From Rufibacter hautae (lineage in GTDB: Bacteria; Bacteroidota; Bacteroidia; Cytophagales; Hymenobacteraceae), in contig NZ_VKKY01000001.1 in the NCBI RefSeq assembly GCF_008271695.1, positions 676,589 to 740,588 of the forward strand: a DNA stretch of 64,000 nucleotides, given 5' to 3'. The notes beneath the pieces are model-generated. The model saw only the letters and a list, made by a program, of their open reading frames with translations, searched no databases and was not told where the DNA came from. A program made the position numbers and the translations under genes. Positions 10,206 to 63,381 of this stretch are shown piece after piece. Every line of letters begins with the position of its first letter. Position 1 is the stretch's first letter.

Positions 10206-11086
10206 AACATCTCCAAATGTCGTTAAACAAGTGCAATATAAGTACTTACAATATATGAAAATAGTTGCATCTATTTTCATGCCCCACTTTCATTATATAA
10301 CATTAAGTAGAAACGACCTCCTACTCAACCGCTCCTTTTCTGGCAGTAAAAGCCAATAAAACCCTCTTTAAGGCACTTCAAGGCATATTATTCACAAGTA
10401 AACACCCTAAAACACATCTGTAATAAAGCGACAAACTTATTTGATATTTAAAACCTGAAAAGAATTATACTGAATTAACAAGCCAGAAAGGATTTGACAA
10501 AACTACTAACCATTCAGTGACCTCATCTTCTTTAAATGATAATATTATTCACACAATTAACAACAAGTAGATTTATAGAATAATATAGACATCAATCATC
10601 AAAAGGACAGAATAGGATCAGGTATCACCTTAGTTTAACAGGAGAAAACCTAAGGCCCAACAATCTATCACAAAGCCATAACCAAGATTCTTATAAATTG
10701 AAGCAAGACCCTTGGTTAAAAGTGATTTACTACCTGCTTATCATAATTTATGATTATAAATACACTACCCTTTTTACCTACTCCTTCTTTTATCCTCTTT
10801 TACAAGAATAGCCCAAAAAACAATTGAGCATTTTGGCACTACAGGAATCCTAAACCTGTAGGAAGGAAACACCAGAATAAATATCTGCCCTTAAACTCAG
10901 ATCTGCTTTAGAACAGTTTTGCGCTGATTTTCCAGAAACTAGGTCTTAAACAAGAAATGCGCTGGCATTTAGGCGAATTAAAAAAGGGCTACGCGGAGGG
11001 GCTGCTGGATATCATCCAAAGCAACTCCTTTGCATGGCCCTTCTTTGTTTTTAGTTTAAACTTTTGCCTTACTACTTAAACCCTGC
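10206..11086. other. Long AT-rich intergenic region
   Basis: About 880 bp with no supportable gene. Reading frames are short and carry AT-rich composition. The only structure seen is the palindrome at 10917-10952. A small RNA could hide here, but nothing in the sequence shows it. Confidence 0.5.
10917..10952. repeat. 36-nt palindromic repeat, copy 1
   Basis: Left half GTTTTGCGCTGATTTTCC and right half AGAAACTAGGTCTTAAAC match the family pattern with a few arm mismatches. It lies about 130 bp beyond the stop codon of the leftward SEC14-like gene. Confidence 0.7.
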
Positions 11087-11521
11087 TCAGGCGGCTACTA
11101 CGTCGTCTTTTGTGGCTTTCACCTTTTGCTTTGTAACAAGCAGCCATCTTTCGGCGGCAAGTTGGCTGTCAAAGATGCCGATCTTCACATTTTTAACTTC
11201 TAGCCGCCCGGCGTAGTCTGGTGACAAATTGCTTTTGGGAGGTTTCACCCACGCGAAAAAAGCACAGGTTGTCTTGTCCAGTTCCAGGAACCCCACAGTA
11301 GCAGCCCAGATGGCAGTGGCTTTCCAGTGCGTAGTTACGTTTGAGTTATTGTTCAGGATCAAGTGGCACCTTTCCTGCTCCAGCATGCTCAACAGGAACC
11401 GGCATCCATCTAACACGTTTTGTCTGGTAATATCGCCCCACCAGTCTACGTATAGAATAGAGGTTTCATTATCTACCGTAATGGTAATGTAGGGTTCAAT
11501 TAATAAGATGCTTCTAGCCAT
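11087..11521 (-). CDS. STAS/SEC14-like domain protein
   Basis: A 144-aa soluble protein. The pattern ILYVDWWGDITRQNVLDGC, followed by the strand-helix pattern CHLILNNNSNVT and a late SQLAAERWLL helix, resembles the small STAS/SEC14-like (SpoIIAA-like) proteins that occur in many copies in Hymenobacteraceae. Its function there is unknown; a sensor or scaffold role is guessed for the fold. It starts at the ATG at 11521 and stands alone, transcribed away from the phosphate operon. Confidence 0.6.
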   Translation of the reverse strand: MARSILLIEPYITITVDNETSILYVDWWGDITRQNVLDGCRFLLSMLEQERCHLILNNNSNVTTHWKATAIWAATVGFLELDKTTCAFFAWVKPPKSNLSPDYAGRLEVKNVKIGIFDSQLAAERWLLVTKQKVKATKDDVVAA

Positions 11522-11658
11522 AGCAACAATTGACTTACGTGGAGCTTACTCTGCAAAAAGTGTCATTAAATATAAGATAATTTAATTTGGCACCAAAACT
11601 TCATTTACTGTTTCTCACCTTCCTAATTCCGCAGCAACAGATTAGGTTTCAACCTTTT

Positions 11659-11694
11659 ATTTTAAAACAGGTTTCCTAAAAACAGCCTTAAAAC
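11659..11694. repeat. 36-nt palindromic repeat, degenerate copy 2
   Basis: Only the right half (AAAAACAGCCTTAAAAC) fits well; the left arm is decayed. Confidence 0.4.
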
Positions 11695-11891
11695 GGCTTT
11701 CCAGCGTTTCCCTGCGTTTGCTTTCCTATCTACGGCCAAACATGGTTTGAAAGTTCTACAAAACACTGCTTTATATGCGTCTATTACCAAAATCTGAAGT
11801 AAACAACTGCCATCCAGAGACCAGGAAAGCATATTTACACTTCTTAACAATTAGGTAACATAGAAGTAATATTCAGGCAATACTGTCCCTC

Positions 11892-11899
11892 TACTTTTG
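11892..11899 (+). promoter_or_regulatory. -7 promoter box of the phosphate operon
   Basis: TACTTTTG fits the Bacteroidetes TAnnTTTG consensus and points to the porin gene. No TTTG element is seen at the usual -33 distance, so an activator may be needed; that is inference. Confidence 0.5.
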
Positions 11900-12089
11900 C
11901 ACCATCAAAAGACCACGGCTAAAAACCCGAGACTAATTTTTAAACGTGTGTTTTTTGATGGGCAGAACAGAATCAAAGGCAATAACGCTGAAGTGGATGT
12001 TTTCCTACCATTACCCTCTTTTCATTCTGACTAAATGCAGAGAGGCAACAGTTACAGAATTTTACAATTAAACACTTCACTTTTTGCTT

Positions 12090-16441: not shown

Positions 16442-16477
16442 GTTTTGGGCCCAGTTTTTTAGAATCGGGTTTAAAAC
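16442..16477. repeat. 36-nt palindromic repeat, copy 4 (pstA-pstB spacer)
   Basis: Halves GTTTTGGGCCCAGTTTTT and TAGAATCGGGTTTAAAAC. It lies inside an open frame that extends pstB upstream, which argues that the true pstB start is downstream. Confidence 0.7.
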
Positions 16478-17287: not shown

Positions 17288-17323
17288 GTTTTGAAGCCGA
17301 TTTTCTGAAAACAAGCTTTAAAC
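17288..17323. repeat. 36-nt palindromic repeat, copy 5 (pstB-phoU spacer)
   Basis: Halves GTTTTGAAGCCGATTTTC and TGAAAACAAGCTTTAAAC, with a well-paired centre. Confidence 0.75.
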
Positions 17324-18164: not shown

Positions 18165-18292
18165 AAGTAGTTTAATCCTCCGGGGTTACTCCTCACCAAG
18201 GCCACCCTTGGTCACCACTGAATTACTTGCCGAGCGCGTTTCATGGCCGTTTTATTAAAAAAGAGCCTGAACCAATCTGCCTTGTAAACCGG

Positions 18293-19689: not shown

Positions 19690-19725
19690 GTTTCACAGCT
19701 GTTTTTGCAAAATGGGCTTGAAAAT
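19690..19725. repeat. 36-nt palindromic repeat, copy 6
   Basis: Left half GTTTCACAGCTGTTTTTG, right half CAAAATGGGCTTGAAAAT (last C changed to T). It begins 3 nt after the hydrolase stop. The rest of the roughly 300-bp gap to the next gene shows only a -7 box. Confidence 0.65.
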
Positions 19726-20902: not shown

Positions 20903-21077
20903 CGCCGTCAATACACTGACCGCCAATAAAATGTTTTCCTCCCATAGGAATTTTGCATTTTCTTCCCTTCTCAATTCTGTTAGCATTGTTAATGTTAACT
21001 TAACAGTAGTCTCACCTACTTTTCTTTTTAATTATTTCTTTTTTACCAATTCTTTTTTTGCACAAAAAAAATCCTTT

Positions 21078-24000
21078 ATGAAAAACCTTATTACCCGATT
21101 GATGCTCATCGTGGTGATGTGTTTGCCTATGCACCTTAGTTGGGGCCAGGGCTCAACCACCGCCTCAATGAACGGTGTAATCACTGATGCTAGTGGTGCT
21201 GGCCTGGCTGGCGCTACAGTAGTGGCGATTCACACTCCTTCTAACACCCAATACGCTGCAAGCGCCGATGCCAATGGCCGTTACAACTTGCAAAACATGC
21301 GCGTTGGTGGTCCTTATACCCTTACTTCTACGTACGTAGGTTACCAAGACCAAAAGAGAGAAAACGTATTCTTGTCTCTGGGTCAAAACCTTAAACTGGA
21401 TTTCAACTTAGCCCAAAGTGCGGTAGGTTTGAGCGAGGTACAAGTAGTATCAGACCGCGGTGCCGTGATCAACGCAGACCGTACTGGTGCAGCTACAAGC
21501 GTTTCACGGGAGCAGATTCAGAACCTTCCTACCTTGAACCGTGGCTTGTCTGATTTCACAAGACTAACCCCACAAGCCTCTTCTTCTGGTGGAGGAACTT
21601 CATTGGGAGGTGCAAACAACCGTTATAACAACATCACTATTGATGGCGCTGTTAATAATGACGTATTTGGATTGGCTTCTAACGGTGCGCCAGGCGGACA
21701 GGCTGGTACACAACCTATCTCATTAGATGCTATTGACCAAATCCAGATCGTACTTGCTCCTTACGATGTAAAGTTCGGTAACTTTACAGGTGGTGGCATC
21801 AATGCTGTTACCAGATCAGGTACCAACAACCTGGAAGGATCTATCTATGGTTTCGGCCGTAACCAAAGCACTGTAGGAAATGACCCTACCACTGAATTAA
21901 AAACTGCTGATTTCAAAGATTACCAGACAGGCTTCAGAGTTGGAGGTCCAGTGATCAAGGATAAGTTGTTCTTTTTCTTAAATGGTGAAATTACACGTCG
22001 TAGCGAACCATTGATTAACGGATTAGGAACAGCAGGTTCACGTGTACCTTCTGACAGTGTACAGCAAATGTATAACTTCCTTCAAACGCAATATGGTTAT
22101 AACGCAGGTACTTTTGGCAACATTGACCGCCGTACCGAAAGCAACAAATTCTTTGCTCGTTTAGACTGGAATATTACTGACCGTCATCAATTAACGCTTC
22201 GCCATAACTATGTAGACGCTTTTGATGATAACATAACACGCAGTCTTTCTGCTTTCCGTTTCGGCAACAATGCCTACGTTTTCAACAGTGTAACTAACAG
22301 TACAGTTGCAGAACTTCGTAGCCGTTTTTCAGAGTCTCTCTCTAACAGCTTAATTGTTGGATATTCTAGAATTAGAGATAACCGTGATGTACTTGGCCAG
22401 CTATTTCCGCAAGTAAGAATTAACTATAGCAATGGCGGTACAGGAACAGTAGACGCTGGTACCGAAAGAAGCTCTATCTACAACGAGCTTGATCAGGATA
22501 TCTTTGAATTCACTGACAACCTTACCTTCTTCAGTGGTCGTCATACCTTCACACTAGGTACACACAATGAATTCTTCCACTTCCGTAACCTGTTCATCAA
22601 CAACGCAGCTGGTTACTATCAGTTCCCAAGCTTTAAACGCTTCTTTGACCAAGGTTTACCAACCAGGTTACAGGCCACTTACTCTGCTGATTCTAAAAAC
22701 CCACAACCATCTGCAGAATTTGATGCGATGCAGCTAGGGTTCTATGCGCAAGATGAGTTCTCTATCACAGACAACTTCAGATTGACCGCTGGTATTCGTT
22801 TGGACATTCCAGTAATGCCAGACACCCCAGCTAGAAATGAAAAAGTTGAGACAACTTTTGCTAACACTCAGTACAGCGATTTACGGACAGATCAAACTCC
22901 AAGTGGCCAGTTGCTGTGGGCTCCTCGGGTAGGCTTTAACTGGGATGTATTTGGTGACAAAACGTTCCAGCTGAGAGGTGGTACAGGTATCTTTACTGGA
23001 CGTGTTCCATTTGTGTGGTTGTCAAACCAATTCACCAACAATGGTATCACCTTTAACAACATTGACTCAAACAGACCTCCTAGATTCGAGCCGAATCCTA
23101 ACAACCAAGCCGCTGTAGCAGGTGCTTCTACTGCTTCTGAAATCAACCTTGTGACTTCAGACTTTAAAATACCTCAAACTTTCCGTACCAATTTAGCAGC
23201 AGATTACACCTTGCCTTTCGGTATTGTTGCTACGGTAGAAGGTATTTACTCAAAAACCTTGAATGACATTGTATACAAGAACATTAACTTGGTAGCACCT
23301 TCCGGTAACTTAGAAGGAGCCGAAAAGAGACCTATCTATCCAGCTGTAAGACAGATCAACTCTGCCTTTACCAACGTAATTCTACTTGACAATGCTAACA
23401 AAGGGTATTCTTATAGTTTGACTGGTCAATTGCAGAAGAACTTTGACAATGGTCTGAATACAATGGTGGCTTACACCTACGGTAAGTCTAAAGACCTGAA
23501 TAGTGGTGCTAGCAGCACTGCAGTATCAAACTGGCAGTTCAACCAGATAGCTTGGGATCCAAACAATCCTGAATTGTCTTACTCACGTTCAGACGTGCGT
23601 CACCGTATCATTGCCACTGGTGGTTACACTGTTAAATACTTAGAGCACTTTGGAACATCTATCTCTCTGTTCTACGAAGGTCAGTCTGGCACGCCATTCA
23701 CCTACCTGTACAGAAATGACTTGAATGGTGATGGTCAAAATGGTAACGACTTGATGTACGTTCCTAGAAATAGAACTGAGATGCCAAATATGAGCGAACA
23801 GCAATGGAATGACTTAAATGCATACATTGAAGGCGATTCATATCTTAGCACCCGCAGAGGTCAATACACAGAGCGTAACGGAGCACGTATGCCATGGACG
23901 CATCAAGTTGACTTACGTTTAGCTCAGGATCTTTACTTCAATGCTGCTGGCAAGAAGAATACACTGCAATTGACTTTTGATGTCTTCAACATTGGTAATT

Positions 24001-24182
24001 TGATTAACAACGATTGGGGTCGTCAGTATTCAATCACAAACAGCGCAGTTGAACTTGTATCCGCAACTCGTACAGGAACTGGAGCTACTTACACTTTCAG
24101 CAAACCTGCTGGAAAAGTATGGGGTGAAACTTTCTCTTCAAGATGGCAAGGACAAGTTGGTCTGCGTTACATCTTCCAATAA
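21078..24182 (+). CDS. Oar-like TonB-dependent outer-membrane receptor (copy 1)
   Basis: A 1,034-aa receptor from the ATG at 21078; the frame is open back to 20931, but that part is a poor low-complexity extension. Signal peptide ends near LSWGQG. Next come a carboxypeptidase-regulatory-like domain (about 28-115, SGAGLAGATVVAIHT), a plug with FNLAQSAVGLSEVQVV, and a barrel ending in GLRYIFQ. No SusD partner follows, so it is the Oar rather than the SusC type. Codons are strongly biased to CGT, GGT, GCT and AAC, like atpD, which suggests high expression. The ligand is unknown. Confidence 0.9.
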   Translation: MKNLITRLMLIVVMCLPMHLSWGQGSTTASMNGVITDASGAGLAGATVVAIHTPSNTQYAASADANGRYNLQNMRVGGPYTLTSTYVGYQDQKRENVFLSLGQNLKLDFNLAQSAVGLSEVQVVSDRGAVINADRTGAATSVSREQIQNLPTLNRGLSDFTRLTPQASSSGGGTSLGGANNRYNNITIDGAVNNDVFGLASNGAPGGQAGTQPISLDAIDQIQIVLAPYDVKFGNFTGGGINAVTRSGTNNLEGSIYGFGRNQSTVGNDPTTELKTADFKDYQTGFRVGGPVIKDKLFFFLNGEITRRSEPLINGLGTAGSRVPSDSVQQMYNFLQTQYGYNAGTFGNIDRRTESNKFFARLDWNITDRHQLTLRHNYVDAFDDNITRSLSAFRFGNNAYVFNSVTNSTVAELRSRFSESLSNSLIVGYSRIRDNRDVLGQLFPQVRINYSNGGTGTVDAGTERSSIYNELDQDIFEFTDNLTFFSGRHTFTLGTHNEFFHFRNLFINNAAGYYQFPSFKRFFDQGLPTRLQATYSADSKNPQPSAEFDAMQLGFYAQDEFSITDNFRLTAGIRLDIPVMPDTPARNEKVETTFANTQYSDLRTDQTPSGQLLWAPRVGFNWDVFGDKTFQLRGGTGIFTGRVPFVWLSNQFTNNGITFNNIDSNRPPRFEPNPNNQAAVAGASTASEINLVTSDFKIPQTFRTNLAADYTLPFGIVATVEGIYSKTLNDIVYKNINLVAPSGNLEGAEKRPIYPAVRQINSAFTNVILLDNANKGYSYSLTGQLQKNFDNGLNTMVAYTYGKSKDLNSGASSTAVSNWQFNQIAWDPNNPELSYSRSDVRHRIIATGGYTVKYLEHFGTSISLFYEGQSGTPFTYLYRNDLNGDGQNGNDLMYVPRNRTEMPNMSEQQWNDLNAYIEGDSYLSTRRGQYTERNGARMPWTHQVDLRLAQDLYFNAAGKKNTLQLTFDVFNIGNLINNDWGRQYSITNSAVELVSATRTGTGATYTFSKPAGKVWGETFSSRWQGQVGLRYIFQ

Positions 24183-24203
24183 CGAGATAGCTTAATTTCT
24201 TCT

Positions 24204-24235
24204 AAAAAAGGCGAACCTTGTGGTTCGCCTTTTTT
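24204..24235 (+). terminator. Rho-independent terminator after Oar-like copy 1
   Basis: Perfect 14-bp arms (24204-24217 and 24222-24235), loop TTGT, ending in a T6 run. Confidence 0.9.
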
Positions 24236-24252
24236 ATGCCTTATATCTTATG

Positions 24253-24280
24253 AAAGCCAGACAGAGCACTGTCTGGCTTT
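24253..24280 (+). terminator. Second hairpin after Oar-like copy 1
   Basis: Perfect 12-bp arms (AAAGCCAGACAG and its complement), loop AGCA, followed by TTGTG. It may be a backup terminator. Confidence 0.7.
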
Positions 24281-24659
24281 TGTGTTTTTGGCCATGTTAT
24301 AAGAAAGTAGCCCTAAAAGGGGAAAGCCGGCATCTGCTGGGCTTCCATAGCCAGGTTAAAGGAACGAACTTCTATGTTTAGGCTCTTTACTAGAGTATTA
24401 AGGCAGAAATAAGTTTTCGGCAGAAATAAACTTGTGCCGTGTGGCATCGTAAAGAGAACGGCTAACTAGGTGATTATCTAATAGTTAGTATTATAAATAT
24501 ACTATATAGGCCCTGCCCTTCCCCAGCCTTGCGTGGCTGACTGCCTCCACACCTTTCCTCCGGAGGAGTTTATCTGACCCTAATGCGCCCCTGCTCATCA
24601 CCCTTTATTTCCAATCCCGCTCATTAGTTCACTTAAAAGTTTGGCATAACAGAACCTTT
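24281..24659. other. Intergenic region between the two Oar-like genes
   Basis: About 380 bp without a gene. No TAnnTTTG box precedes copy 2. A TTTG sits at 24639, but no matching -7 element follows it. Confidence 0.5.
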
Positions 24660-27600
24660 ATGAAAAAACTAATTACCCCCCTATTGCTTACTCTTGTCAT
24701 GTGTTTGTTTGGTCACCTTAGTTGGGGACAGGGCGCTACTACCGCCTCCATGACGGGCGAGATTACAGATGCAAGCGGCGCAGGGCTACCGGGGGCCACT
24801 ATTGTGGCCGTACATACGCCTTCCAATACCCAATATGCCGCCAGCGCCAATGAGAACGGCCGGTACAATCTGCAAAACTTGCGGGTGGGTGGCCCCTATA
24901 CCATCACCGCCACCTATATTGGCTACCAAGACCAGCGCCGGGAAAACGTCTTCCTTTCCTTAGGCCAAACCCTTAGGCTGGATGTAAACCTAGCCGCCAG
25001 CGCCGTAGGCCTGAGTGAGGTGCAGGTAGTATCAGAGCGAGGTGCTGTCATCAACGCTGACCGGACCGGGGCTGCCACCAACGTATCCCGGGAGCAGATT
25101 GAGCGGCTTCCTACGTTAAACCGCTCCCTACAGGATTTCACCCGCCTTACGCCACAAGCCTCCGGCAACTCTTTGGGTGGGGCCAACAACCGTTACAACA
25201 ACATCACCATAGACGGGGCCGTGAACAATGACGTGTTCGGGATATCCGGTACCGGGACCCCGGGCGGGCAGGCAGGCACCCAACCTATTTCCCTGGATGC
25301 CATTGACCAGATCCAGGTGGTGCTGGCTCCCTACGATGTGAAGTTCGGGAACTTTACCGGGGGCGGGATTAATGCGGTTACCCGATCCGGAACGAACAAC
25401 TGGGAAGGCTCAGCCTATGCCTTTGGACGTAATGAGAACATTGTAGGCGATGACCCGATCACCGAGCAGGAAACAGCGGAGTTCAAGGACTACCAAACGG
25501 GTTTCAGGATAGGCGGACCGATTATCAAAGACAAACTGTTCTTTTTCCTGAACGGAGAAATTACCCGGCGCACGGAGCCACTTTTATTCAACCTGGGTGA
25601 CCCGGGCTCCATTGTCCCGGCAGAAGACGTGAGGAGAATTGAAGACACGCTCCGCATCAAGTACGGGTATGACCCCGGCACCTCCGGCCCTATCAACAGG
25701 CTTACCGAGAGCAACAAGATCTTTGGCCGGCTGGACTGGAACATCACAGACCGGCACCAGTTAACGCTTCGGCACAACTTTGTAGACGCCTTTGACGAGA
25801 ACATCACTCGCACCAACACCACGTTCCGGTTTGGCGGCAACGCCTACCGGTTTAACAGCTCCACCAACAGCACCGTGGCAGAGTTACGCAGCCGCTTTTC
25901 CGAAAACTTCTCTAACAGCCTTATTGTGGGCTATTCCAGGATCAGGGACAACAGGCAAACGCCGGGCGGCCTTTTCCCACAGGTAACCATCCGGTTTGCG
26001 GGGAGCGGCAGTAACACTATCACCGCCGGCACCGAGCGGAGTTCGGCCTTCAATGAGCTGGACCAGGACATCTTTGAGTTCACAGACAATCTCACCATTT
26101 TCAAAGGCCGCCATACCTTCACGTTGGGTACCCACAATGAATTCTTCAGCTTCCGGAACCTGTTCATCAACAACTACAACGCCTATTACCAGTTCAACAG
26201 CGCCGAGGATTTCTTTGCTGCCAGGCCTTTCCAGATAGAGCAGACCTATTCGGCTAGCCAAAACAACCCCACCCCGGCCGCCGAGTTCAACGCCGCGCAG
26301 CTAGGCTTCTATGTGCAGGATGAGATGGATGTGCTGGAAAACCTACGGGTAACCCTGGGGCTCCGGTTGGATGTTCCGGTCATCCCAGATGAACCCGCTC
26401 GCAACCAGGCCGTGGAAACCGCTTTTGCCAATACCACCTACTCCAACCTGAGGACAGACGTGACGCCTACCGGACAACTCTTATGGGCCCCGCGCCTGGG
26501 CTTCAACTGGGACGTGCGCGGCGACAAAACCATACAGGTGCGGGGCGGTACCGGTATCTTCACAGGAAGGGTGCCGTTTGTGTGGCTGTCCAACCAGTTC
26601 GTGAACAATGGGATTACTTTCAGTTCGCTACAATTGAGAAACCAGACCGCGCCAAACCGGTTTGTAACCGACATCAACCAGGTCCGGAACCTGGGCCCGG
26701 CCGTAAGCACCACGGAGATCAACCTGATTTCCGAAGACTTCAAGATTCCGCAGACGTTCAGAACCAATCTGGCCGTGGATTATACCCTTCCCTTAGGCAT
26801 CATTGCCACCTTGGAAGGTATCTACTCCAAAACCATGAATGATATTGTGTACCGTGATATCAACTTACTCTCTCCCACTGGCACTTTGAGCGGTCCAGAC
26901 AATCGGGCGCTGTATTCCTCCGGGCGGGTTTCCTCTTCGTTCACCAACGTAATCCTGCTGGATAATACCAACCGCGGTTACACCTACACCTTGACCGGCC
27001 AGTTGCAGAAAAACTTCAATATGGGGCTCAATACCATGGTGGCGTACACCTACGGCAAATCTGAGGATGTGAACTCAGGCGCCAGTAGCACCGCCCGGTC
27101 TAACTGGCAGTTCAACCAGGTCTACCGAAATCCCAATGACCCCGAGCTTTCCTACTCTCGCTTTGATATCCGGCACCGGGTTATTTCCTCCGGAGGCTAC
27201 ACGTTTAAATGGCTGAACAACTTCTCCACTACCTTATCTTTGTTCTACGAAGGCCAGTCTGGCACACCTTTCACCTACCTGTATGCGGGCGATATCAACA
27301 ACGATGGCAGCAACGCCAATGACCTGCTGTACGTGCCGCGCACCATTGAAGAAAGTGGATTGATAGATGTCACCAACAGTTCCGGGGTAGTAACGCGCAC
27401 GGCAGCCCAGCAGTGGACAGACCTGAACGCCTTTATTGAGAACGATGAGTATCTGAAAACCCGCCGGGGCCAGTATGCTGAACGCAACGGGGCACGCACG
27501 CCCTGGACCCACCGCGTGGACCTCCGCCTGGCGCAGGACATCTTCGCCAATTTAGGCGCGAAAAACCACACCCTGCAGCTAACCCTGGACATCTTCAACG

Positions 27601-27797
27601 TAGGTAACCTATTCAACCAGGACTGGGGCCGCAACTACTTCGTGAACAACGCCGCCGTAGAGTTGGTGAGGTTCAGCCGCCGCGATGATAACAACCGGCC
27701 GCTCTTTACCTTCAACAACCCTTCGGGCGATGTCTGGACTACCTCCTTCTCCTCAAGATGGCAGGGGCAGCTTGGGGTACGGTACCTCTTCCAATAA
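24660..27797 (+). CDS. Oar-like TonB-dependent outer-membrane receptor (copy 2)
   Basis: A 1,045-aa paralogue of the gene just upstream, collinear along its length: same signal-peptide end (LSWGQG), same carboxypeptidase-regulatory-like domain (SGAGLPGATIVAVHT), same plug and the same barrel end (GVRYLFQ). Proteins are very similar, but synonymous positions differ widely; copy 2 uses GC-rich codons (CGG, GGC, GCC) where copy 1 uses CGT, GGT, GCT. This suggests an old duplication with different expression levels. The loops most unlike copy 1 are around residues 330-350, 660-700 and 890-915, so the ligand may differ. Confidence 0.9.
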   Translation: MKKLITPLLLTLVMCLFGHLSWGQGATTASMTGEITDASGAGLPGATIVAVHTPSNTQYAASANENGRYNLQNLRVGGPYTITATYIGYQDQRRENVFLSLGQTLRLDVNLAASAVGLSEVQVVSERGAVINADRTGAATNVSREQIERLPTLNRSLQDFTRLTPQASGNSLGGANNRYNNITIDGAVNNDVFGISGTGTPGGQAGTQPISLDAIDQIQVVLAPYDVKFGNFTGGGINAVTRSGTNNWEGSAYAFGRNENIVGDDPITEQETAEFKDYQTGFRIGGPIIKDKLFFFLNGEITRRTEPLLFNLGDPGSIVPAEDVRRIEDTLRIKYGYDPGTSGPINRLTESNKIFGRLDWNITDRHQLTLRHNFVDAFDENITRTNTTFRFGGNAYRFNSSTNSTVAELRSRFSENFSNSLIVGYSRIRDNRQTPGGLFPQVTIRFAGSGSNTITAGTERSSAFNELDQDIFEFTDNLTIFKGRHTFTLGTHNEFFSFRNLFINNYNAYYQFNSAEDFFAARPFQIEQTYSASQNNPTPAAEFNAAQLGFYVQDEMDVLENLRVTLGLRLDVPVIPDEPARNQAVETAFANTTYSNLRTDVTPTGQLLWAPRLGFNWDVRGDKTIQVRGGTGIFTGRVPFVWLSNQFVNNGITFSSLQLRNQTAPNRFVTDINQVRNLGPAVSTTEINLISEDFKIPQTFRTNLAVDYTLPLGIIATLEGIYSKTMNDIVYRDINLLSPTGTLSGPDNRALYSSGRVSSSFTNVILLDNTNRGYTYTLTGQLQKNFNMGLNTMVAYTYGKSEDVNSGASSTARSNWQFNQVYRNPNDPELSYSRFDIRHRVISSGGYTFKWLNNFSTTLSLFYEGQSGTPFTYLYAGDINNDGSNANDLLYVPRTIEESGLIDVTNSSGVVTRTAAQQWTDLNAFIENDEYLKTRRGQYAERNGARTPWTHRVDLRLAQDIFANLGAKNHTLQLTLDIFNVGNLFNQDWGRNYFVNNAAVELVRFSRRDDNNRPLFTFNNPSGDVWTTSFSSRWQGQLGVRYLFQ

Positions 27798-27799: not shown

Positions 27800-27835
27800 G
27801 TTTCCAATCTCTTTTTCAGAAAATCGGGCGAAAAC
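27800..27835. repeat. 36-nt palindromic repeat, copy 7 (merged with a terminator)
   Basis: GTTTCCAATCTCTTTTTC, then AGAAAATCGGGCGAAAAC. It begins 3 nt after the stop, and its right half forms the left arm of the following terminator. Confidence 0.6.
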
Positions 27836-28018: not shown

Positions 28019-28094
<76 letters not shown>

Positions 28095-28102
28095 TGAAAA
28101 TC

Positions 28103-28134
28103 AAGCACTTACGAGGTAAAACTTGTAAGTGCTT
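28103..28134 (+). terminator. Terminator behind tRNA-Ala, inside the element
   Basis: Arms AAGCACTTAC (28103-28112) and GTAAGTGCTT (28125-28134), then a T run. It resembles the terminator beyond the right attachment site, which shares the GCACTTAC core. Confidence 0.8.
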
Positions 28135-28348
28135 TTTTTGTTGGGTCACACAATTGTACACAAAGATTGTTTAAATCGTAGTAATTTGGTCTCAACAAAT
28201 CCTTGAATAGCTTTAACAATCTTTTTAATCGTTTTGCAAAATCAAAGTAGTCATAGTGACTGCCATTCTTTGAGGCAAGATATATTGCAGTAAGTCCCTA
28301 ATCTATATCAGAAATCAAATTATCTATCTCTGAAAGTATTGTCACCAT
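28109..28348 (-). pseudogene. Remnant of a small gene of unknown function
   Basis: Reading leftward from the ATG at 28348 gives about 80 codons with an in-frame TAG at codon 17; before and after it the frame reads as sensible protein (SEIDNLISDID, then LASKNGSHYDYFDFAKRLKR). The last codons run into the terminator and the stop lies at 28109-28111. It could be a broken gene of the element or chance; no family is recognised. Confidence 0.3.
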
Positions 28349-28401
28349 CCCTGATACAGTTAAAAACTAGTCAACAAAGCAGCATTCCCAACTTGTTCTA
28401 G

Positions 28402-29166
28402 CTATCTATACACAAATCTTCGTTTTGTGAAAGTAGAACGCCTTCCAGCCCTGTCTACTGAAAGCTTACTTATCCAATTCCCTTTTTCATCGAAATCGTA
28501 GCACAAGCCTATATCATTTATAATAGCATTATCTGGCCTTAAGATTAGAATCTCTGTTATCTCTTTTGTGACTTTGTCTCTCCCGAGGTATATCGTAGCC
28601 TCAAGCTCATTGGAGGAACTATAATGAGACTGTACCTCTATGCTATCTCCCTCCCACTTACTCTTATGGTAAGTGAATACCTTTCCCTTACCATCTGTAA
28701 GCTTTTCAACTATGGGTTTTCCACTCTCGTTGTATTCGATAATTTTTGCAAGGCCTGGCTCTCCTTTAGCGTCATAACTCTTCACAGTTTCAACCCTGTT
28801 CTTTGAGTCTCTAACATGCACCTGCTTTGTGATAAGCTTTGATGCGGAATCTGAAGTGATACTCTCTTTTACAAAACCATCTTTATCATACTTGAAGATG
28901 TGTCTTTTTAGAATTCTGTCATTTTGATCGAACTCGATTAGTTCGGTTATGTTTCCTTCCTTATCAAAGTTGGACTGACCATGCCCTGTCCAGTCCTTCT
29001 CACCTACTTCCCACTTATCAGACCTGTATTCGGCTTTATAAGTGTTCTCATGCACTGAAACCACATTTCCTTTTAGATTATATTCATCAAGGGTGTTTTT
29101 CTTTTGGGAATGGCTTTCAAAAGAGCAGATCCAGCCTAGGACAAAAATTAGACATACCTTTTTCAT
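28402..29166 (-). CDS. Secreted protein of unknown function with YD/RHS-like strands
   Basis: A 254-aa protein from the ATG at 29166. The signal peptide is short (MKKVCLIFVLGWICSF, cut near ESHSQ). The rest is a series of hydrophilic beta-strand pairs with a repeated G-N/K-x-x-x-x pattern (DKEGNITELIEFDQNDRI, YNESGKPIVEKLTDGKGK, DEKGNWISKLSVDRAGR). It resembles small RHS/YD-like secreted proteins of Bacteroidetes. It is AT-rich compared with the chromosomal genes around the element. The function is unknown. Confidence 0.7.
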   Translation of the reverse strand: MKKVCLIFVLGWICSFESHSQKKNTLDEYNLKGNVVSVHENTYKAEYRSDKWEVGEKDWTGHGQSNFDKEGNITELIEFDQNDRILKRHIFKYDKDGFVKESITSDSASKLITKQVHVRDSKNRVETVKSYDAKGEPGLAKIIEYNESGKPIVEKLTDGKGKVFTYHKSKWEGDSIEVQSHYSSSNELEATIYLGRDKVTKEITEILILRPDNAIINDIGLCYDFDEKGNWISKLSVDRAGRRSTFTKRRFVYR

Positions 29167-29256
29167 TTGTACCCTATTTAAGTGATTATTGAAACTTGCT
29201 TCTCACTTAGCTAAAATACAATTAATTAACAAAAATTTTCAACTATAAAATATAAA

Positions 29257-29303
29257 AACCCTGGGCTGTTACCTTGAAAGGAGCAAATTAACAGCTCAGG
29301 GTT
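29257..29303 (-). terminator. Terminator, leftward
   Basis: 15-bp arms with one G-T pair (29257-29271 and 29289-29303). On the minus strand it ends GGGTTTTTATATTTT, the form of a rho-independent terminator for the T9SS gene transcript. Confidence 0.7.
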
Positions 29304-29426
29304 CAGACCTCAATTCAGGAAAACTTACCTTTCTACTTACTCCAGCACAAGCCTCACATGATAGGAATTTCCAGCTTTTCGAAGCACCACGAGGTACATT
29401 CCACTTCTTTCTTGACCGACCTACAG

Positions 29427-29462
29427 CCCCTGCCCAAAGAGGCCACCCTCTTTGGGCAGGGG
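29427..29462. repeat. Perfect 16-bp inverted repeat
   Basis: Arms CCCCTGCCCAAAGAGG and its complement around loop CCAC. It is GC-rich and has no T run. Confidence 0.6.
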
Positions 29463-29473
29463 CGGATAAACGA

Positions 29474-29507
29474 AGAAAGCCTGAACCATTGCTGGCCCAG
29501 GCTTTCT
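29474..29507. terminator. Hairpin with T run
   Basis: Arms AGAAAGCCTG and CAGGCTTTCT, with a 14-nt loop; TTTTC follows on the plus strand and TTCGTTT on the minus strand, so it may act in both directions. Confidence 0.5.
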
Positions 29508-29559
29508 TTTTCACACCCGAAGGTCTGGAGTGACGGAATCCTTAAAAAGGGTACTTCCG

Positions 29560-32433: not shown

Positions 32434-33313
32434 GTCTATTGGTTTAAGTGGAAAAATTGAATGCGCTTCGATTAAAAAACGGCACTGTAGCAGTGCACCG
32501 GTGGAGTGACGACTAAACAGTTTTTAGGCTAGATTAGGCGAGAAGGCAGGTTTTGGGTGGAATAGCTATAGATGCATATAATATTTATAATCTATGATTT
32601 AATTAAATAATTTAAAGCTGAATATAAGTGATTACAGATCAATAACCAAATTATTTATACGTATTCAATATTAAATATGATTTTTTATCTGGGTGTTTAC
32701 CCGATGTATGGTGGTAGATGCTTGTTCTAGATACAAACAGAGGCTCAGCATTTACTTCGAAGACTTCAAGCGGTGAGTTCAGGTTAGTCCACCAGGGCTT
32801 TGCGTCTTTTAGTCAGGTATACTAATGCCCCCATGCTCAACCGACGCCCGCGTACTGGAAAACGGAGCGAAGAGGCGGGGGAACCCGGAGACGCGAGGGT
32901 GCTTCGCCGTATGTTCAATAGGTAGGCACCGTAGTTACCCCCTGTACTCGGGGACGATAAGGTTAGGACTAGCCAATAGTAAATACCTGATACTTTAATA
33001 ACATGAAGCATCCCCTTGTTGATGTGACAGGGCTTTTTAGGATGTACCGTAGGCTGCAGTGAGATGAAGTAGGTTTTCTTCACCTGTAATGGACCATATG
33101 TTCAGAAGGCTAAATACTTTGATTTAAAAGACTGCACCATTATGTTTTATAAAACTTTATACTTGAAAGGGATGGAAAAAACTAGCCCGCTGCGAAAAAT
33201 CACAGCGGGCTAGTTTTTTATAGTTACAGATAGAAACCTTCATTCCCCTTTGCTCCCATTATAATATGGTTTTACCTATTGCATTGCCGCTGTAAAAACC
33301 ACAGGAGCGACCT
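32434..33313. other. Mostly non-coding part of the element
   Basis: About 880 bp between the T9SS gene and the integrase. AT-rich flanks enclose a GC-rich patch (about 32790-32960). A leftward frame with a GTG start (32784-33083, 99 codons, ending TKRRKALVD) spans this patch. Its second half is Arg/Ser/Pro-rich and its composition is abrupt, so I do not call it a gene; it may be a scar of another mobile sequence. Confidence 0.4.
33176..33219. terminator. Bidirectional terminator beyond the integrase
   Basis: Perfect arms of about 17 bp around CTAGCCCGCTG, 10-nt loop, A run on the left and T run on the right, so it can stop transcription on both strands. It lies 95 bp after the leftward integrase stop. 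Confidence 0.85.
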
Positions 33314-42414: not shown

Positions 42415-42450
42415 GTTTCTCCCCCATTTTCATTAAAGCAGGGCAAAAAC
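42415..42450. repeat. 36-nt palindromic repeat, copy 12
   Basis: GTTTCTCCCCCATTTTCA, then TTAAAGCAGGGCAAAAAC. It is in the divergent gap between the MFS gene and the HEAT-cyclophilin gene. Confidence 0.6.
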
Positions 42451-45804: not shown

Positions 45805-45841
45805 GTTTAGAGGAAGATTTTCCAAAAACAGCCTCTAAAAC
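45805..45841. repeat. Palindromic repeat, copy 13 (37 nt)
   Basis: GTTTAGAGGAAGATTTTCC, then AAAAACAGCCTCTAAAAC; one base longer than the rule. It ends 2 bp before the rsmG stop codon. Confidence 0.7.
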
Positions 45842-46548: not shown

Positions 46549-46584
46549 GTTTTAGATCTGTTTTCAGGAAAAGAAACTAAAAAC
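46549..46584. repeat. 36-nt palindromic repeat, copy 14
   Basis: GTTTTAGATCTGTTTTCA, then GGAAAAGAAACTAAAAAC. The flanks (GTTCC before, GGAAC after) extend the dyad symmetry. Confidence 0.75.
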
Positions 46585-46749: not shown

Positions 46750-46785
46750 GTTTTGGGCCTATTTTCTGCAAAACAGCTTTAAAAC
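46750..46785. repeat. 36-nt palindromic repeat, copy 15
   Basis: GTTTTGGGCCTATTTTCT, then GCAAAACAGCTTTAAAAC. It directly joins the terminator of the sigma-factor gene. Confidence 0.75.
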
Positions 46786-51052: not shown

Positions 51053-51098
51053 AAGGTGTTTCGGGGCTGTTTCAACCAAAACAGCCCCGAAACACCTT
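51053..51098. repeat. Perfect hairpin form of the 36-nt palindrome, copy 16
   Basis: Arms of 20 bp (51053-51072 and 51079-51098) with loop CAACCA. The central 36 nt (51058-51093) fit the family exactly: GTTTCGGGGCTGTTT and AAACAGCCCCGAAAC. This copy could also act as a terminator for the tgt-lptF/G unit. Confidence 0.85.
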
Positions 51099-52065: not shown

Positions 52066-52854
52066 GTAATCCTCCGGGAAAGGCAGTGGCCATTCTGGCG
52101 CCGTTTGGAACAATCCGTACATCGTTGACCCCGAGCCTGACATAGACGCGTACACCGCGCCCATTTGGTACAGTTGTGCCTTCAGGTTAGACAGCACCGG
52201 GTACTTGGGGAACAGGCTCGCCTCAAAGTCATTCACCACCTCGTTTTTCCAGGTTGAGATATCCTGGGCCAGAAGCGTTTTAAGGCTCTTTTCCGGAAAT
52301 CGGGGCGAAACTCCGGCATAAGCCTCAGCAGTACTGATGGCCAGGCTGGGATAGACCAGCAGCAGGTGCCAGCCTTTCAAATTCAAGCCAATAGGTTCAA
52401 ACACATCGCCTTTCTCCAGCGCCAGCACCGTCTGGTTTTTGATGAAAAACGCGCAGTCACTGCCCAGTTGCCGGGCGTAGTTTTCCAAGGCATCCTCTGC
52501 GAGGTTCAGGTTGAATTGCTGGTTCAGGAGTTTGAGCGTGAAAGCGGCATCGGCGGAGCCACCGCCCAGACCCGCTCCCATGGGAATGACCTTGTGCAGG
52601 TGCATCTGAATGGCAGGCAGTTCAAAATCCCGGCGCAAAAGTTCGTAGGCTTTCCAGCAGAGATTAGCGGTGGGCGCGCCTGGCACCGGCAATCCCGAGA
52701 GCGTGAAAGAGGCCTCTCCCTGTGCGGGCAGAATCTCCAGGGCATCGGTCCAGCCCACGGGCAGAAAGCAGGAAACCAGGTTATGGAACCCATCCGGGCG
52801 CTTCGCCACCAATTGCAATCCAAGGTTTATCTTCGCGTTCGGGAATTGAATCAT
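52042..52854 (-). CDS. ispE: 4-diphosphocytidyl-2-C-methyl-D-erythritol kinase
   Basis: A GHMP kinase of the MEP isoprenoid pathway, 270 aa, normal length. The N-terminus is IQFPNAKINLGLQLVAKRPDG, the ATP loop is IPMGAGLGGGSADAAF and the C-terminal glycine motif is SGSGSTMYGLF. The stretch VSPRFPEKSLKTLL (about residues 182-195) is encoded by a sequence that matches the 36-nt palindrome family. Its 3' end overlaps the EamA gene by 24 bp. Confidence 0.95.
   Translation of the reverse strand: MIQFPNAKINLGLQLVAKRPDGFHNLVSCFLPVGWTDALEILPAQGEASFTLSGLPVPGAPTANLCWKAYELLRRDFELPAIQMHLHKVIPMGAGLGGGSADAAFTLKLLNQQFNLNLAEDALENYARQLGSDCAFFIKNQTVLALEKGDVFEPIGLNLKGWHLLLVYPSLAISTAEAYAGVSPRFPEKSLKTLLAQDISTWKNEVVNDFEASLFPKYPVLSNLKAQLYQMGAVYASMSGSGSTMYGLFQTAPEWPLPFPEDYSVWQGVL
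52277..52311. repeat. Palindromic repeat, copy 17 (35 nt, inside ispE)
   Basis: GTTTTAAGGCTCTTTTCC, then GGAAATCGGGGCGAAAC. It is in frame within ispE and is one base shorter than the rule. It is the only copy wholly inside a gene. Confidence 0.5.
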
Positions 52855-52895: not shown

Positions 52896-52931
52896 GTTTC
52901 AGGGCTGTTTTACAGAAACCAGGCCCGAAAC
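52896..52931. repeat. 36-nt palindromic repeat, copy 18
   Basis: GTTTCAGGGCTGTTTTAC, then AGAAACCAGGCCCGAAAC. It is in the divergent gap between ispE and the sugar transferase. Confidence 0.75.
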
Positions 52932-54272: not shown

Positions 54273-55405
54273 GCCAAAAAGGAGAATTCATTTACCTCTC
54301 GCCCCCGCACATGGGCGGCAGGGAACAGCATTTTGTGCAACAGGCTTTTGACCAGAATTGGATTACCACGGCTGGCGCCAACGTGAACGGCTTTGAGCAG
54401 GAGCTGGCCAGCTACACAGGAGTACCCGCTGCGGCTGCTTTGGCATCGGGCACCGCTGCGCTGCATCTGGCTTTGCTGGCCCTAGGCGTTGGGCCCGGCG
54501 ATGAAGTCCTTTGCTCTACGTTCACCTTTGTGGCCAGCACCAACCCCATCCGCTACGTGGGCGCCACGCCCGTGCTCATAGAAAGCGAGGCGACTACCTG
54601 GAACCTTTGCCCCAAAGCGTTGGAGGCCGCTTTGCAGGACCGCCACAAGAAAGGCAGAATTCCTAAAGCCCTCATGCTGGTGCATCTCTACGGCATGCCC
54701 TCCCGGATGAAGGAAATTCAGGAACTTGCCCAGCATTACGGAGTGCCCATCATTGAAGACGCTGCCGAAGCCCTCGGCTCCAGATACCACGGCCGTTTAT
54801 TGGGTACTTTCGGGGAATTGGGGGTTTTCTCCTTCAACGGAAACAAGATCATCACCACTTCAGGCGGCGGCGCTCTGGTGTCTTCTGACCCCACTTTGGT
54901 GGAACAGGCCCGCTGGCTGGCCATGCAGGCCAAAGACGATCTGCCGTACTATCATCACACTACCATGGGCTACAATTACCGTATGAGCAACATCAGCGCG
55001 GGCATTGGGCGGGGACAGTTGGAGGTATTAGAGGAAAGGGTGCGACAAAGGAGAAAGGTGTTTGCCAACTACCAGGAATTGCTGCAGGAGGTGACAGAAC
55101 TGGAATGGCACGCAGAGCCGGAAGGCTTTTTTTCGAACCGCTGGCTCAGCTGCTTCACTATCAAGAAAGGTAGCTCTATGACTCCTGAGGTCCTGCGCCA
55201 GCACCTGTTAACCGCCAATATTGAAAGCCGTCCGCTTTGGCAACCCATGCACCGGCAACCGCTCTACCAATCCTGCGACTACTTCGGCGATTACGTGAGC
55301 GATGACCTGTTCGCCCGCGGGCTGTGCCTTCCTTCGGGCTCTAGCCTCACCCCCTCAGACCAGGAGCGAATAGCCGATACTATCAAAAAAGCGTTTCAGG
55401 GCTGA
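54269..55405 (+). CDS. DegT/DnrJ/EryC1/StrS aminotransferase (PglE-like)
   Basis: A PLP-dependent aminotransferase that puts an amino group on a nucleotide-linked 4-keto-6-deoxy sugar. It has 378 aa. Motifs: FIYLSPPHMGGREQHFVQ at the start (as in PglE and LegC relatives), ALASGTAALHLAL, VPIIEDAAEALGS (Asp binding PLP) and FSFNGNKIITTSGGG with the PLP Lys. With the two genes before it, this gives the last steps of a bacillosamine-like sugar. The dehydratase (PglF) is not in the window. The stop lies inside a palindrome copy. Confidence 0.93.
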   Translation: MSQKGEFIYLSPPHMGGREQHFVQQAFDQNWITTAGANVNGFEQELASYTGVPAAAALASGTAALHLALLALGVGPGDEVLCSTFTFVASTNPIRYVGATPVLIESEATTWNLCPKALEAALQDRHKKGRIPKALMLVHLYGMPSRMKEIQELAQHYGVPIIEDAAEALGSRYHGRLLGTFGELGVFSFNGNKIITTSGGGALVSSDPTLVEQARWLAMQAKDDLPYYHHTTMGYNYRMSNISAGIGRGQLEVLEERVRQRRKVFANYQELLQEVTELEWHAEPEGFFSNRWLSCFTIKKGSSMTPEVLRQHLLTANIESRPLWQPMHRQPLYQSCDYFGDYVSDDLFARGLCLPSGSSLTPSDQERIADTIKKAFQG

Positions 55406-55428
55406 TTTCAGGAAAAGGAGCCAAAAAC
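55393..55428. repeat. 36-nt palindromic repeat, copy 19 (overlaps stop)
   Basis: GTTTCAGGGCTGATTTCA, then GGAAAAGGAGCCAAAAAC. Its first bases encode the C-terminal Phe-Gln-Gly and the TGA of the aminotransferase. Confidence 0.75.
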
Positions 55429-55474: not shown

Positions 55475-55510
55475 GTTTTAGGACCGTTTTTAGCAAAAAG
55501 GCCTTAAAAC
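55475..55510. repeat. 36-nt palindromic repeat, copy 20
   Basis: GTTTTAGGACCGTTTTTA, then GCAAAAAGGCCTTAAAAC. It is only 46 bp from copy 19, making a pair. Confidence 0.7.
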
Positions 55511-59900: not shown

Positions 59901-59936
59901 GTTTTTCGGCGGGTTTCCTAAAAGCAAGGCAAAAAC
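59901..59936. repeat. 36-nt palindromic repeat, copy 21
   Basis: GTTTTTCGGCGGGTTTCC, then TAAAAGCAAGGCAAAAAC. It lies in the divergent purL-atpD gap. Confidence 0.65.
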
Positions 59937-59972: not shown

Positions 59973-60008
59973 GTTTCGGGGCTGTTTTGCGGAAATCAGC
60001 CTCTAAAC
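59973..60008. repeat. 36-nt palindromic repeat, copy 22
   Basis: GTTTCGGGGCTGTTTTGC, then GGAAATCAGCCTCTAAAC; one of the best matches. It is 36 bp from copy 21. Confidence 0.8.
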
Positions 60009-61980: not shown

Positions 61981-62001
61981 GATTTCCTGTTTTCCATTTA
62001 A

Positions 62002-62035
62002 AAAGCCCGTTCTTCTCTGCAGAAGGCGGGCTTTT
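62002..62035 (+). terminator. Terminator after atpC
   Basis: AAAGCCCG pairs with CGGGCTTT, extended by TTCT/AGAA with a bulge, then a short T run that merges into palindrome copy 23. Confidence 0.7.
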
Positions 62036-62071
62036 GCTTTTAGGCTGTTTTTCTGAAAACAAGCCCAAAGC
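62036..62071. repeat. 36-nt palindromic repeat, copy 23
   Basis: GCTTTTAGGCTGTTTTTC, then TGAAAACAAGCCCAAAGC. The outermost bases differ from the rule but keep pairing (GC with GC). Confidence 0.65.
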
Positions 62072-62206
62072 GCGCTTCCTACTTTCACTCCTTTCTGCTT
62101 ACCTTTAGGATTGTTGATTGCCCATCGTTTGTTGTTTTTAACCGAAGCACCAATCACTCAGGCATGACAACCAACAACTAGCAACCAACAATTAACCATC
62201 AGTTTC

Positions 62207-63334
62207 GTGTCCATATCGCCAAAGATCACCCCCATTTACCAGACATCCGTGTTCACCTTTGAGGACCTGAACGCATTGGAAGCTTACTTCCAGGAGCCTG
62301 GCCAGCATTACATGTACACCCGCTACGGCAACCCCAACAGCGAAGAATTGGCCCAGGAAGTAAACAAACTGGAACATGGGCAAGGCGCAGTGGCTACCTC
62401 CTCGGGCATGTCGGCGATTCTGACGGCGGTGCTGGTGTACGCCAAAGCCGGAGACCACGTACTCTGCGCCGAGGAGATCTACGGAGGCTCCTCTTCCCTG
62501 CTCTCCAATGAACTCAGTCGATTAGGTGTGGAGGTGACTTACGTGCCTACCGCTGATACTTACTCGCTTGCCGGCTACGTGCGCGAAAACACCAAACTGT
62601 TCTTAGCCGAGACCATCAGCAACCCCATGATGATGGTGATGGATCTGGCCCAACTAGCGCAAAAGTGCCAAGCTAAGGGCATAAAACTAGTGGTGGACAA
62701 CACCTTCGCTTCGCCGGTGATTACTCGTCCGCTGGAACTGGGTGCCGATTTGGTGATCCACAGTGTGACCAAATACCTATCCGGGCACAGTGACGTGACA
62801 GCAGGTGTACTAATAGCCAAAGAAGCCGAAGACGCTGCCCGGGCCGCCCAAATCATGCGCACCTGGGGCCTGAACCTGAGTCCGTTTGAGAGTTGGCTAG
62901 CGGCTCGCGGCCTGAAAACGCTTAAGCTCAGAATGCGGGAGCACTCCGCCAACGGTTTGGCCGTGGCCCAGTTCCTGCAGCAGCACCCCAAAGTGCAGGC
63001 CGTTTTCTATCCGGGCTTGGCCGAGCACCCGCAGCACGACCTCGCGCAAAAGCAAGGCAACGGCCTATACGGCGGCATGCTGTCCTTCAGAATCGCGGAT
63101 GAGACGGAGGCCGTGAACCGTTTCATGAAAGCCTTGTCGCACATTCCATTCGCGCCGTCACTGGCTGGGGTCACTACCTCCATTTCTTACCCGTTGGGCA
63201 CCTCCCATCGCGGCCTCACCCAGGAACAACAGGAAAAAATGGGCATCACCGTAGGCCTGATTCGGTTATCCGTGGGGATAGAGGATGCGCAGGAACTCAT
63301 CGCAGACCTGGAGAAAGGTCTGGCGGCTATTTAG
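62207..63334 (+). CDS. Trans-sulfuration PLP enzyme (cystathionine synthase/lyase family)
   Basis: A 375-aa Cys/Met metabolism enzyme starting at a GTG. Motifs: YTRYGNPNSEELAQEVNKLE, SSGMSAILTAVL, the Asp-binding region KLVVDNTFASPV and the PLP Lys in IHSVTKYLSGHSDVTAG. LAGVTTSISYPLGTSHRGL carries the substrate-binding Arg region. Whether it is cystathionine gamma-synthase, a lyase or O-acetylhomoserine sulfhydrylase cannot be told from sequence alone. Confidence 0.92.
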   Translation: MSISPKITPIYQTSVFTFEDLNALEAYFQEPGQHYMYTRYGNPNSEELAQEVNKLEHGQGAVATSSGMSAILTAVLVYAKAGDHVLCAEEIYGGSSSLLSNELSRLGVEVTYVPTADTYSLAGYVRENTKLFLAETISNPMMMVMDLAQLAQKCQAKGIKLVVDNTFASPVITRPLELGADLVIHSVTKYLSGHSDVTAGVLIAKEAEDAARAAQIMRTWGLNLSPFESWLAARGLKTLKLRMREHSANGLAVAQFLQQHPKVQAVFYPGLAEHPQHDLAQKQGNGLYGGMLSFRIADETEAVNRFMKALSHIPFAPSLAGVTTSISYPLGTSHRGLTQEQQEKMGITVGLIRLSVGIEDAQELIADLEKGLAAI

Positions 63335-63345
63335 TGGTAACTTCC

Positions 63346-63381
63346 GTTTTATGCCTATTCTCTAAAAATTAGCCCCAAAAC
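63346..63381. repeat. 36-nt palindromic repeat, copy 24
   Basis: GTTTTATGCCTATTCTCT, then AAAAATTAGCCCCAAAAC. It lies 11 bp after the PLP-enzyme stop and 11 bp before a -7 box. Confidence 0.7.

Follow-up and report, generated by a model that had tools for sequence, protein, structure and literature searches.

The locus and its palindromic elements

The window analysed here, 64,000 nt of a Rufibacter hautae contig (NZ_VKKY01000001.1, positions 676,589 to 740,588), carries between its genes many copies of a 36-nt palindromic element, the family of which is confined to the genus Rufibacter. A first-pass annotation, made from the sequence alone, had counted about 24 such palindromes, and exactly 24 strong copies were recovered by a profile search, with scores of 24.6-42.6 and all within positions 10916-63381 (Table 1). 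It had also remarked that no copy lies before about position 10900 or inside an element at a tRNA-Ala gene. Indeed, the profile scan detected no strong copy either in the first 10.9 kb, which hold three of the weak look-alikes, or within the tRNA-Ala island.

The shape of the element is more regular than previously annotated. The skeleton reads GTTT-N9-TTT-N4-AAA-N9-AAAC, that is, GTTT at positions 1-4 and TTT at 14-16 are mirrored at 21-23 and 33-36, with nine looser positions between them. Copies were searched for with an ungapped palindromic profile of length 36, and most of the statistics given below come from partial genome samples, which amount to 464 kb for the host and to 250-400 kb each for three other genomes. 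The whole host genome contains 633 exact matches to the 14 fixed bases of the skeleton and one match to the reversed pattern; with at most one mismatch the numbers are 1,633 and 9, respectively. Scanning with a profile built from the copies, as the first-pass annotation had proposed, likewise gave counts far above the null: at a score of at least 16 there are 194 matches in 400 kb of host DNA and none in a 400-kb third-order Markov null (a single null). At a score of at least 20 there are 210 copies per 464 kb, which extrapolates to approximately 2,600 in the genome of 5.84 Mb. When 100 kb of host DNA were scanned for dyads without bias, the top rank was taken by GTTT...AAAC with a total length of 36 (z 11.2), and the same scan of 100 kb from each of four other genera returned other words of other lengths, with best z values of 5.2-6.6.

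Table 1. Palindromic elements and other features of the window (positions are those of the window).
Feature	Position	Strand	Profile score	Remarks
Weaker look-alikes	3866, 6124, 10786, 13381, 34872, 42515		15.2-19.2	
36-nt palindromic element	10916..10951		30.3	
36-nt palindromic element	11659..11694		32.2	Gap filled in 6/6 syntenic genomes including host, at another place in G009
36-nt palindromic element	16442..16477		33.4	5 nt past stop codon; gap filled in 12/12 genomes, same place in 11
36-nt palindromic element	17288..17323		38.5	Gap filled in 10/12 genomes
36-nt palindromic element	18238..18273		30.2	Gap filled in 5/5 syntenic genomes, place variable
36-nt palindromic element	19690..19725		30.0	3 nt past stop codon; in 8/8 syntenic genomes at 1-6 nt
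36-nt palindromic element	24284..24319		24.6	Right behind terminator-like hairpin 24252-24281
36-nt palindromic element	27800..27835		28.5	2 nt past stop codon
36-nt palindromic element	36103..36138		36.5	
36-nt palindromic element	37073..37108		38.3	Right behind terminator-like hairpin 37039-37070
36-nt palindromic element	39145..39180		31.1	
36-nt palindromic element	42415..42450		30.1	
36-nt palindromic element	45805..45840		28.2	Adjoins 42-nt perfect palindrome 45753-45794
36-nt palindromic element, pair member 1	46549..46584		35.4	63 nt upstream of gidB-like gene start; 8/8 species
36-nt palindromic element, pair member 2	46750..46785		42.6	69 nt past stop codon; 7/8 species, one weak
36-nt palindromic element	51058..51093		37.8	48 nt upstream of EamA gene; 8/8 species
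Element-like sequence	52277..52312		32.9	Exception, inside GHMP-kinase gene
36-nt palindromic element	52896..52931		41.3	Divergent gap; 8/8 species
36-nt palindromic element	55393..55428		40.1	Overlaps stop codon of gene 54269-55405; 8/8 species, one weak (19.1)
36-nt palindromic element	55475..55510		37.5	Adjoins conserved hairpin; 6/8 species, one weak (15.6)
36-nt palindromic element	59901..59936		30.6	73 nt upstream of minus-strand gene; 5/5 syntenic species
36-nt palindromic element	59973..60008		41.8	139 nt upstream of ATP-synthase-like gene; 5/5 syntenic species
36-nt palindromic element	62036..62071		36.1	Gap filled in 3/4 syntenic species
36-nt palindromic element	63346..63381		34.8	11 nt past stop codon; 2/2 syntenic species
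Two neighbouring large open reading frames	20931..27797			1083 and 1045 aa
tRNA-Ala island	28019..34785			Bounded by the tRNA-Ala gene and the 66-nt direct repeat
tRNA-Ala gene	28019..28093			
66-nt direct repeat	28047..28112, 34720..34785			88% identity
Repeat-rich PKD-domain protein	29560..32433	minus		In the island
Tyrosine integrase	33314..34540	minus		In the island

Distribution among genomes

Exact skeleton copies number 186-1,561 in each of 16 Rufibacter genomes, the host included. Among 43 genomes of other genera there are 0-5 exact matches, and the reversed controls likewise give 0-5. With a stricter pattern, all 16 Rufibacter genomes yield 37-1,245 copies and 183 of the 188 other members of the family none; the remaining five have one or two copies each, or 1-3 if two mismatches are allowed. 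One genome, G008, has few exact matches yet approximately 33 copies of a looser form per 100 kb at a score of at least 18. No description of the element in Rufibacter was found among the titles and abstract beginnings listed in a literature search of open-access papers.

Several isolated sequences were seen elsewhere. The five exceptional family members are genomes of genus g3, with 1-3 copies of the Rufibacter type (for example L170 2458-2563 and L171 1939-1974). The neighbourhoods of these two contain small genes without an assigned role, in L171 near an open reading frame (ORF) that looks by eye like a transposase, and the g3 copies are therefore likely to be imported DNA. In IMG/VR a 39-kb contig has one exact copy between genes (L149 1275-1310) and is the sole viral contig matching the stricter pattern. 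A genome of genus g2 (G016) has palindromes around GTAGCGTAGGGTTTAAACCCTACGCTAC, at three per 100 kb (L124-L128).

Conservation of sites and species dialects

The copies appear to be old chromosomal sites, most of them at stable orthologous positions. A comparison of the host with genome G014 matched 108 gaps between genes. Of the matched gaps that measure 60 bp or more in the host, 45 are filled in both genomes, 6 in the host only, 4 in G014 only and 28 in neither, and thus 45 of the 55 occupied gaps are common to both. These gaps contain 63 host copies, and 52 of them have a G014 partner at most 15 nt off in distance to a neighbouring gene. The gap after gene 15552-16436 holds a copy in 12 of 12 genomes, in 11 of them 3-6 nt past the stop codon; two other gaps are filled in merely one of ten and one of six genomes.

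Conservation is restricted to the skeleton, while the interior and the flanks drift. Alignment identity between the host and G014 is 91% in the core (549/602), 73% in the interior (566/774), 65% in the centre (111/172) and 73% in the nearby intergenic flank (1194/1630), as determined from 43 of the 63 host copies, located in gaps of similar length, with no G014 copy required. A first version, based on 52 pairs with both members passing the profile, had given 88% for the core, 69% for the interior, 59% for the centre and 61% (ungapped) or 77% (gapped) for the flanks; since choosing pairs by profile favours the core, identity was remeasured without that choice. Twenty-three interior pairs of the host are changed on both sides in G014, and 14 of these are still paired. 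In the divergent gap 52855-52992 and its orthologues, the gene-side flank occurs in unrelated versions, and R. sediminis joins one gene-side flank to a far flank seen beside another, the switch point being the element.

Species differ in their dialect of the element. The consensus is GTTTTCGGGCTCATTTC in G012, GTTTTgGGCCTGTTTT in G005 and GTTTTnGGcCTGTTTT in G001, and in R. immobilis 10 of 12 copies start with GTTTAG. Eight G012 copies from a shared region score 52.7 on average under a G012 profile trained elsewhere and 29.7-38.1 under six others. For the G006 copies the mean is 46.7 under their own profile and 30.1-40.1 under others, the G005 copies prefer their own profile weakly (39.9 versus up to 38.4), and the host and G014 profiles cannot be distinguished from each other or from that of G008. 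In G012 the symmetry extends beyond the element, with TTTCC before and GGAAA after it, and 49 of 154 copies have perfect arms.

Placement relative to genes, terminators and promoters

Among gaps of 60-600 bp, a copy is present in 108 of the 131 convergent ones, in 262 of the 494 between co-directional genes and in 72 of the 143 divergent ones. There is often one copy per gap: exactly one is found in 96 convergent gaps, where a Poisson distribution predicts 37.4, and gaps with two or more copies are rarer than expected in all three classes (convergent, 12 versus 30.0; co-directional, 27 versus 65.3; divergent, 8 versus 17.0). The first-pass annotation had placed the copies between the genes of operons, which does not hold as a rule, as just 4 of 299 co-directional gaps below 60 bp are filled. 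Of 645 sampled copies, 41 are intragenic by gene call.

Where terminators can be recognised, they tend to precede the copy. For the 181 co-directional copies lying 25-200 nt past a stop codon, a same-strand terminator was called between stop and copy in 60 cases and in the equal stretch beyond the copy in 12; the corresponding numbers for the opposite strand are 33 and 7. Of 155 convergent sides, 51 have a terminator between the stop codon and the copy and 21 have one beyond the copy. Some terminator hairpins end 0-8 nt ahead of the copy. Among the 352 co-directional copies, 118 start less than 25 nt past the stop codon. For 90 copies this close to a stop, terminators behind the copy are no commoner on the same strand (19) than on the opposite one (18), and termination may therefore occur at the copy itself; alternatively, the RNA ends there may be Rho-dependent.

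Promoters show the reverse arrangement. On divergent sides, the -7 motif of Bacteroidetes promoters, TAnnTTTG, is present between copy and start codon in 42 of 116 cases and on the far side of the copy in 4; for co-directional sides the numbers are 42 of 225 and 6. The far-side matches are near the genome background. Judging from the sequence, the copies thus seem to be placed between transcription units, with terminators, where recognisable, preceding them and promoters following.

Other features of the window

Within the island delimited by the tRNA-Ala gene and a direct repeat are genes for a tyrosine integrase and for a PKD-domain protein rich in repeats (Table 1). The first of the two large neighbouring ORFs encodes a TonB-plug/OMP-barrel (outer membrane protein) protein; the two are likely to result from a tandem duplication, because they have common stretches that are 71-79% identical and approximately 3.6 kb apart.

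Proposed role of the element

We propose that the copies are duplex DNA sites for a putative Rufibacter-specific protein that would mark the boundaries of transcription units, a reading to which we give about an even chance. Each copy would be a double-stranded site composed of two half-sites that belong together, recognised in a sequence-specific manner. The sites, which appear to be old, would be fixed in place by purifying selection acting on the skeleton, and they would mostly occupy spacer DNA past a terminator or stop codon and ahead of the promoter that follows. Once bound, the protein would most likely act as a boundary, either by stopping RNA polymerases that read through from either side or by separating the supercoiling of neighbouring units. 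A protein that binds a symmetric site tightly would be a hindrance within transcripts and an advantage at their boundaries. In divergent gaps the copies lie upstream of promoters, and insulation is therefore favoured over termination alone. Yeast Reb1 is a general factor bound at roadblock terminators, and the action suggested here resembles it in that a bound protein would stop read-through between units. Unlike the Reb1 sites, those of Rufibacter are bacterial and palindromic, and the analogy concerns the mechanism only, the factor being putative.

Three possibilities had been raised in the first-pass annotation, namely a REP-like element (repetitive extragenic palindrome), an mRNA processing or stability hairpin and a binding site for a nucleoid protein. 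The last is the best supported of the three as far as DNA-protein binding is concerned, although no protein was found among the three families tried (Y1, HU-HIG and serine recombinases). Gyrase and IHF sites in REP sequences and bacterial interspersed mosaic elements, as well as the sites of nucleoid proteins, are repeated sites at the 3' ends of genes, whereas the Rufibacter element is also found upstream of promoters, occurs nearly once per gap and has a different sequence.

Mobile repeats and RAYT genes

It is also conceivable, if unlikely, that the copies descend from an ancient mobile repeat resembling REPs or miniature inverted-repeat transposable elements (MITEs), which was spread by a transposase in the ancestor of the genus, persists where its copies are harmless and has been homogenised within species by occasional copying. 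In its distribution the element does resemble a REP: it is palindromic, intergenic, limited to one genus and present in high copy number. The dialects, the perfect arms of many G012 copies and the 10 of 55 occupied gaps that differ between the host and G014 could be explained in this way as well. Y1_Tnp matches, the mark of REP-associated tyrosine transposases (RAYTs), are present in 15 of the 16 Rufibacter genomes, and Y1 genes also occur in other genera, which lack the element. The exception, G006, has no Y1 match at E<=0.001 despite its 607 exact copies; its RAYT may have been lost.

The link with a RAYT, which the first-pass annotation had suggested looking for, was not found. Of the 21 Y1 ORFs inspected, from nine genomes, some have no element nearby and the others have their nearest one at varying distances, with no systematic flanking by the element. 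Most of these ORFs are approximately 182 aa long, and their length and motifs fit the row for RAYT subclass 2.6 in PMC6006769, where this Bacteroidetes subclass is described as having atypical structures on its flanks, of which further copies exist elsewhere. Inspection by eye of 18 pairs of Rufibacter RAYT flanks (L089-L108) revealed around most of them other paired hairpins, unlike the 36-mer. By the same inspection, these hairpins differ between paralogues and form a repeat family of their own. Short, mostly intergenic palindromes in high copy number and the presence of RAYT genes are what Rufibacter has in common with REP/RAYT systems. However, no GTAG/GTGG 5' tag was found beside the hairpin, the consensus is symmetric and starts with GTTT, and the copies are orthologously conserved with dialects. 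The restriction of conservation to the skeleton, the near one-per-gap spacing and the highest density in convergent gaps also speak against a mobile repeat.

Pairing of the arms: DNA or RNA

A 3' RNA hairpin acting in termination, processing or mRNA stability is a quite unlikely explanation. The many copies close to stop codons would suit it, and so would the good folding in G012 (median -16.7 kcal/mol) and some covariation. The first-pass annotation had noted that the arms vary together, which in the pooled set (n=307) is true of pairs 5-32, 6-31, 7-30 and 11-26 (z 3.5-7.2) and not of pairs 8-10, 12 and 13, which do not exceed shuffled pairing; four slid registers gave z values of -0.5 to 1.1. 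In G012 alone, pairs 5, 6 and 12 covary. On the transcribed strand of 352 co-directional copies there is no pooled preference for G-U (295 G-U versus 300 A-C, p=0.87): G012 leans towards G-U (65 versus 38, p=0.01), but G005 leans in the opposite direction (57 versus 93, p=0.004), and an excess near stops in a first, smaller set (99 versus 66, p=0.012) fell to 190 versus 166 (p=0.22) with more genomes. The median folding energy in the host is weak (-5.8 kcal/mol), no T-run follows the copies (T accounts for a fraction of 0.23 over the 10 nt after 233 copies near stops), and at the Rfam gathering cut-off two tRNAs are the sole matches in the window, with none at any copy. An mRNA hairpin is further disfavoured by the position of the copies outside the promoter-terminator interval where this is recognisable, including divergent gaps with promoter motifs between copy and gene. 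An intrinsic terminator was rejected on the basis of the missing U-run and the weak host hairpin; the copy usually lies beside a recognised terminator, though in 110 of 645 cases it overlaps a called terminator.

Half-sites mostly occur together. At a score of 18 there are 13 lone half-sites in the host, 7 in G001, 3 in G012 and 2 in G005, compared with 138, 222, 285 and 236, respectively, within full elements, and at a score of 22 G012 has 253 within full elements and none alone. Because covariation is partial, a pooled G-U bias and a T-run are absent, host folding is weak and lone half-sites are few, a two-fold symmetric complex reading duplex DNA would fit better than an RNA hairpin. At the centre, self-complementary dinucleotides make up 102 of 645 (16%) versus approximately 21% in the flanks; this depletion is strong against shuffled columns and mild against flank dinucleotides, and a crossover dinucleotide is therefore not pressed.

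Self-recognition tags and recombination sites

Very unlikely, in our opinion, is a self-recognition tag that is maintained by molecular drive, as DNA uptake sequences are, or that a system of defence or recombination needs in order to recognise its own chromosome. DNA uptake sequences often form inverted pairs near gene ends. A tag of this kind would account for many genus-limited copies with dialects at orthologous places and for the lack of strong copies in the tRNA-Ala island and over the initial 10.9 kb. However, an obligate dyad of 36 bp is longer than the familiar uptake sequences, and its placement tracks terminators and promoters. The lone and coding single motifs expected of an uptake sequence are rare. 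In PMC3630211, the uptake sequences of Neisseriaceae are described as having thousands of copies and dialects, features that they share with the Rufibacter element, which differs from them in being a 36-bp dyad that is rare in coding DNA and has few lone half-sites.

It is highly improbable that the copies serve a cassette system or a site-specific recombinase, with spacer DNA being exchanged at them: one divergent gap does keep its gene-to-copy distances with 36 bp to approximately 2.6 kb of DNA between two copies, and in one gap the flanks switch at the copy, but such variation is also expected if spacer DNA alone tolerates insertions and deletions, serine recombinase counts have no genus pattern in 29 genomes, and the centre is just mildly depleted for self-complementary dinucleotides.

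Strength and meaning of the boundary model

Several observations weigh against the protein-bound boundary site proposed above. No genus-specific pattern was found for Y1 transposases as the cognate protein family, nor for HU-HIG proteins or serine recombinases (29 genomes each). The covariation, together with the 14 of 23 doubly changed pairs that are still paired, hints at a role for palindromicity itself, and in the host the 13 lone half-sites at a score of 18 compare with 1 in the null. Called terminators are not clearly rarer in convergent gaps with a copy (60 of 108) than in those without (16 of 23), most sides have neither a recognisable promoter motif nor a terminator, and divergent gaps are half filled, though no transcript of a flanking gene ends there. 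Gene, terminator and promoter calls were made with simple in-house scripts, and the counts move with the thresholds. In addition, purging of a disruptive sequence from transcribed DNA would also give a spacer location. Purging would explain part of the picture, but neither the preservation of the skeleton at constant positions nor the tendency to nearly one copy per gap.

A more far-reaching form of the boundary model is put forward tentatively. At some two thousand sites across the genome, approximately one per transcription-unit border, a genus-specific protein would insulate neighbouring units, and fast co-evolution of protein and site would have given rise to the dialects with the positions remaining fixed. 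To our knowledge, no general insulator between transcription units has been recognised in bacteria. A dense, position-conserved border site of fixed length in a single genus would make the idea of a bacterial insulator directly testable, and the species dialects would provide a natural experiment on the joint change of a protein and more than 1,000 of its sites.

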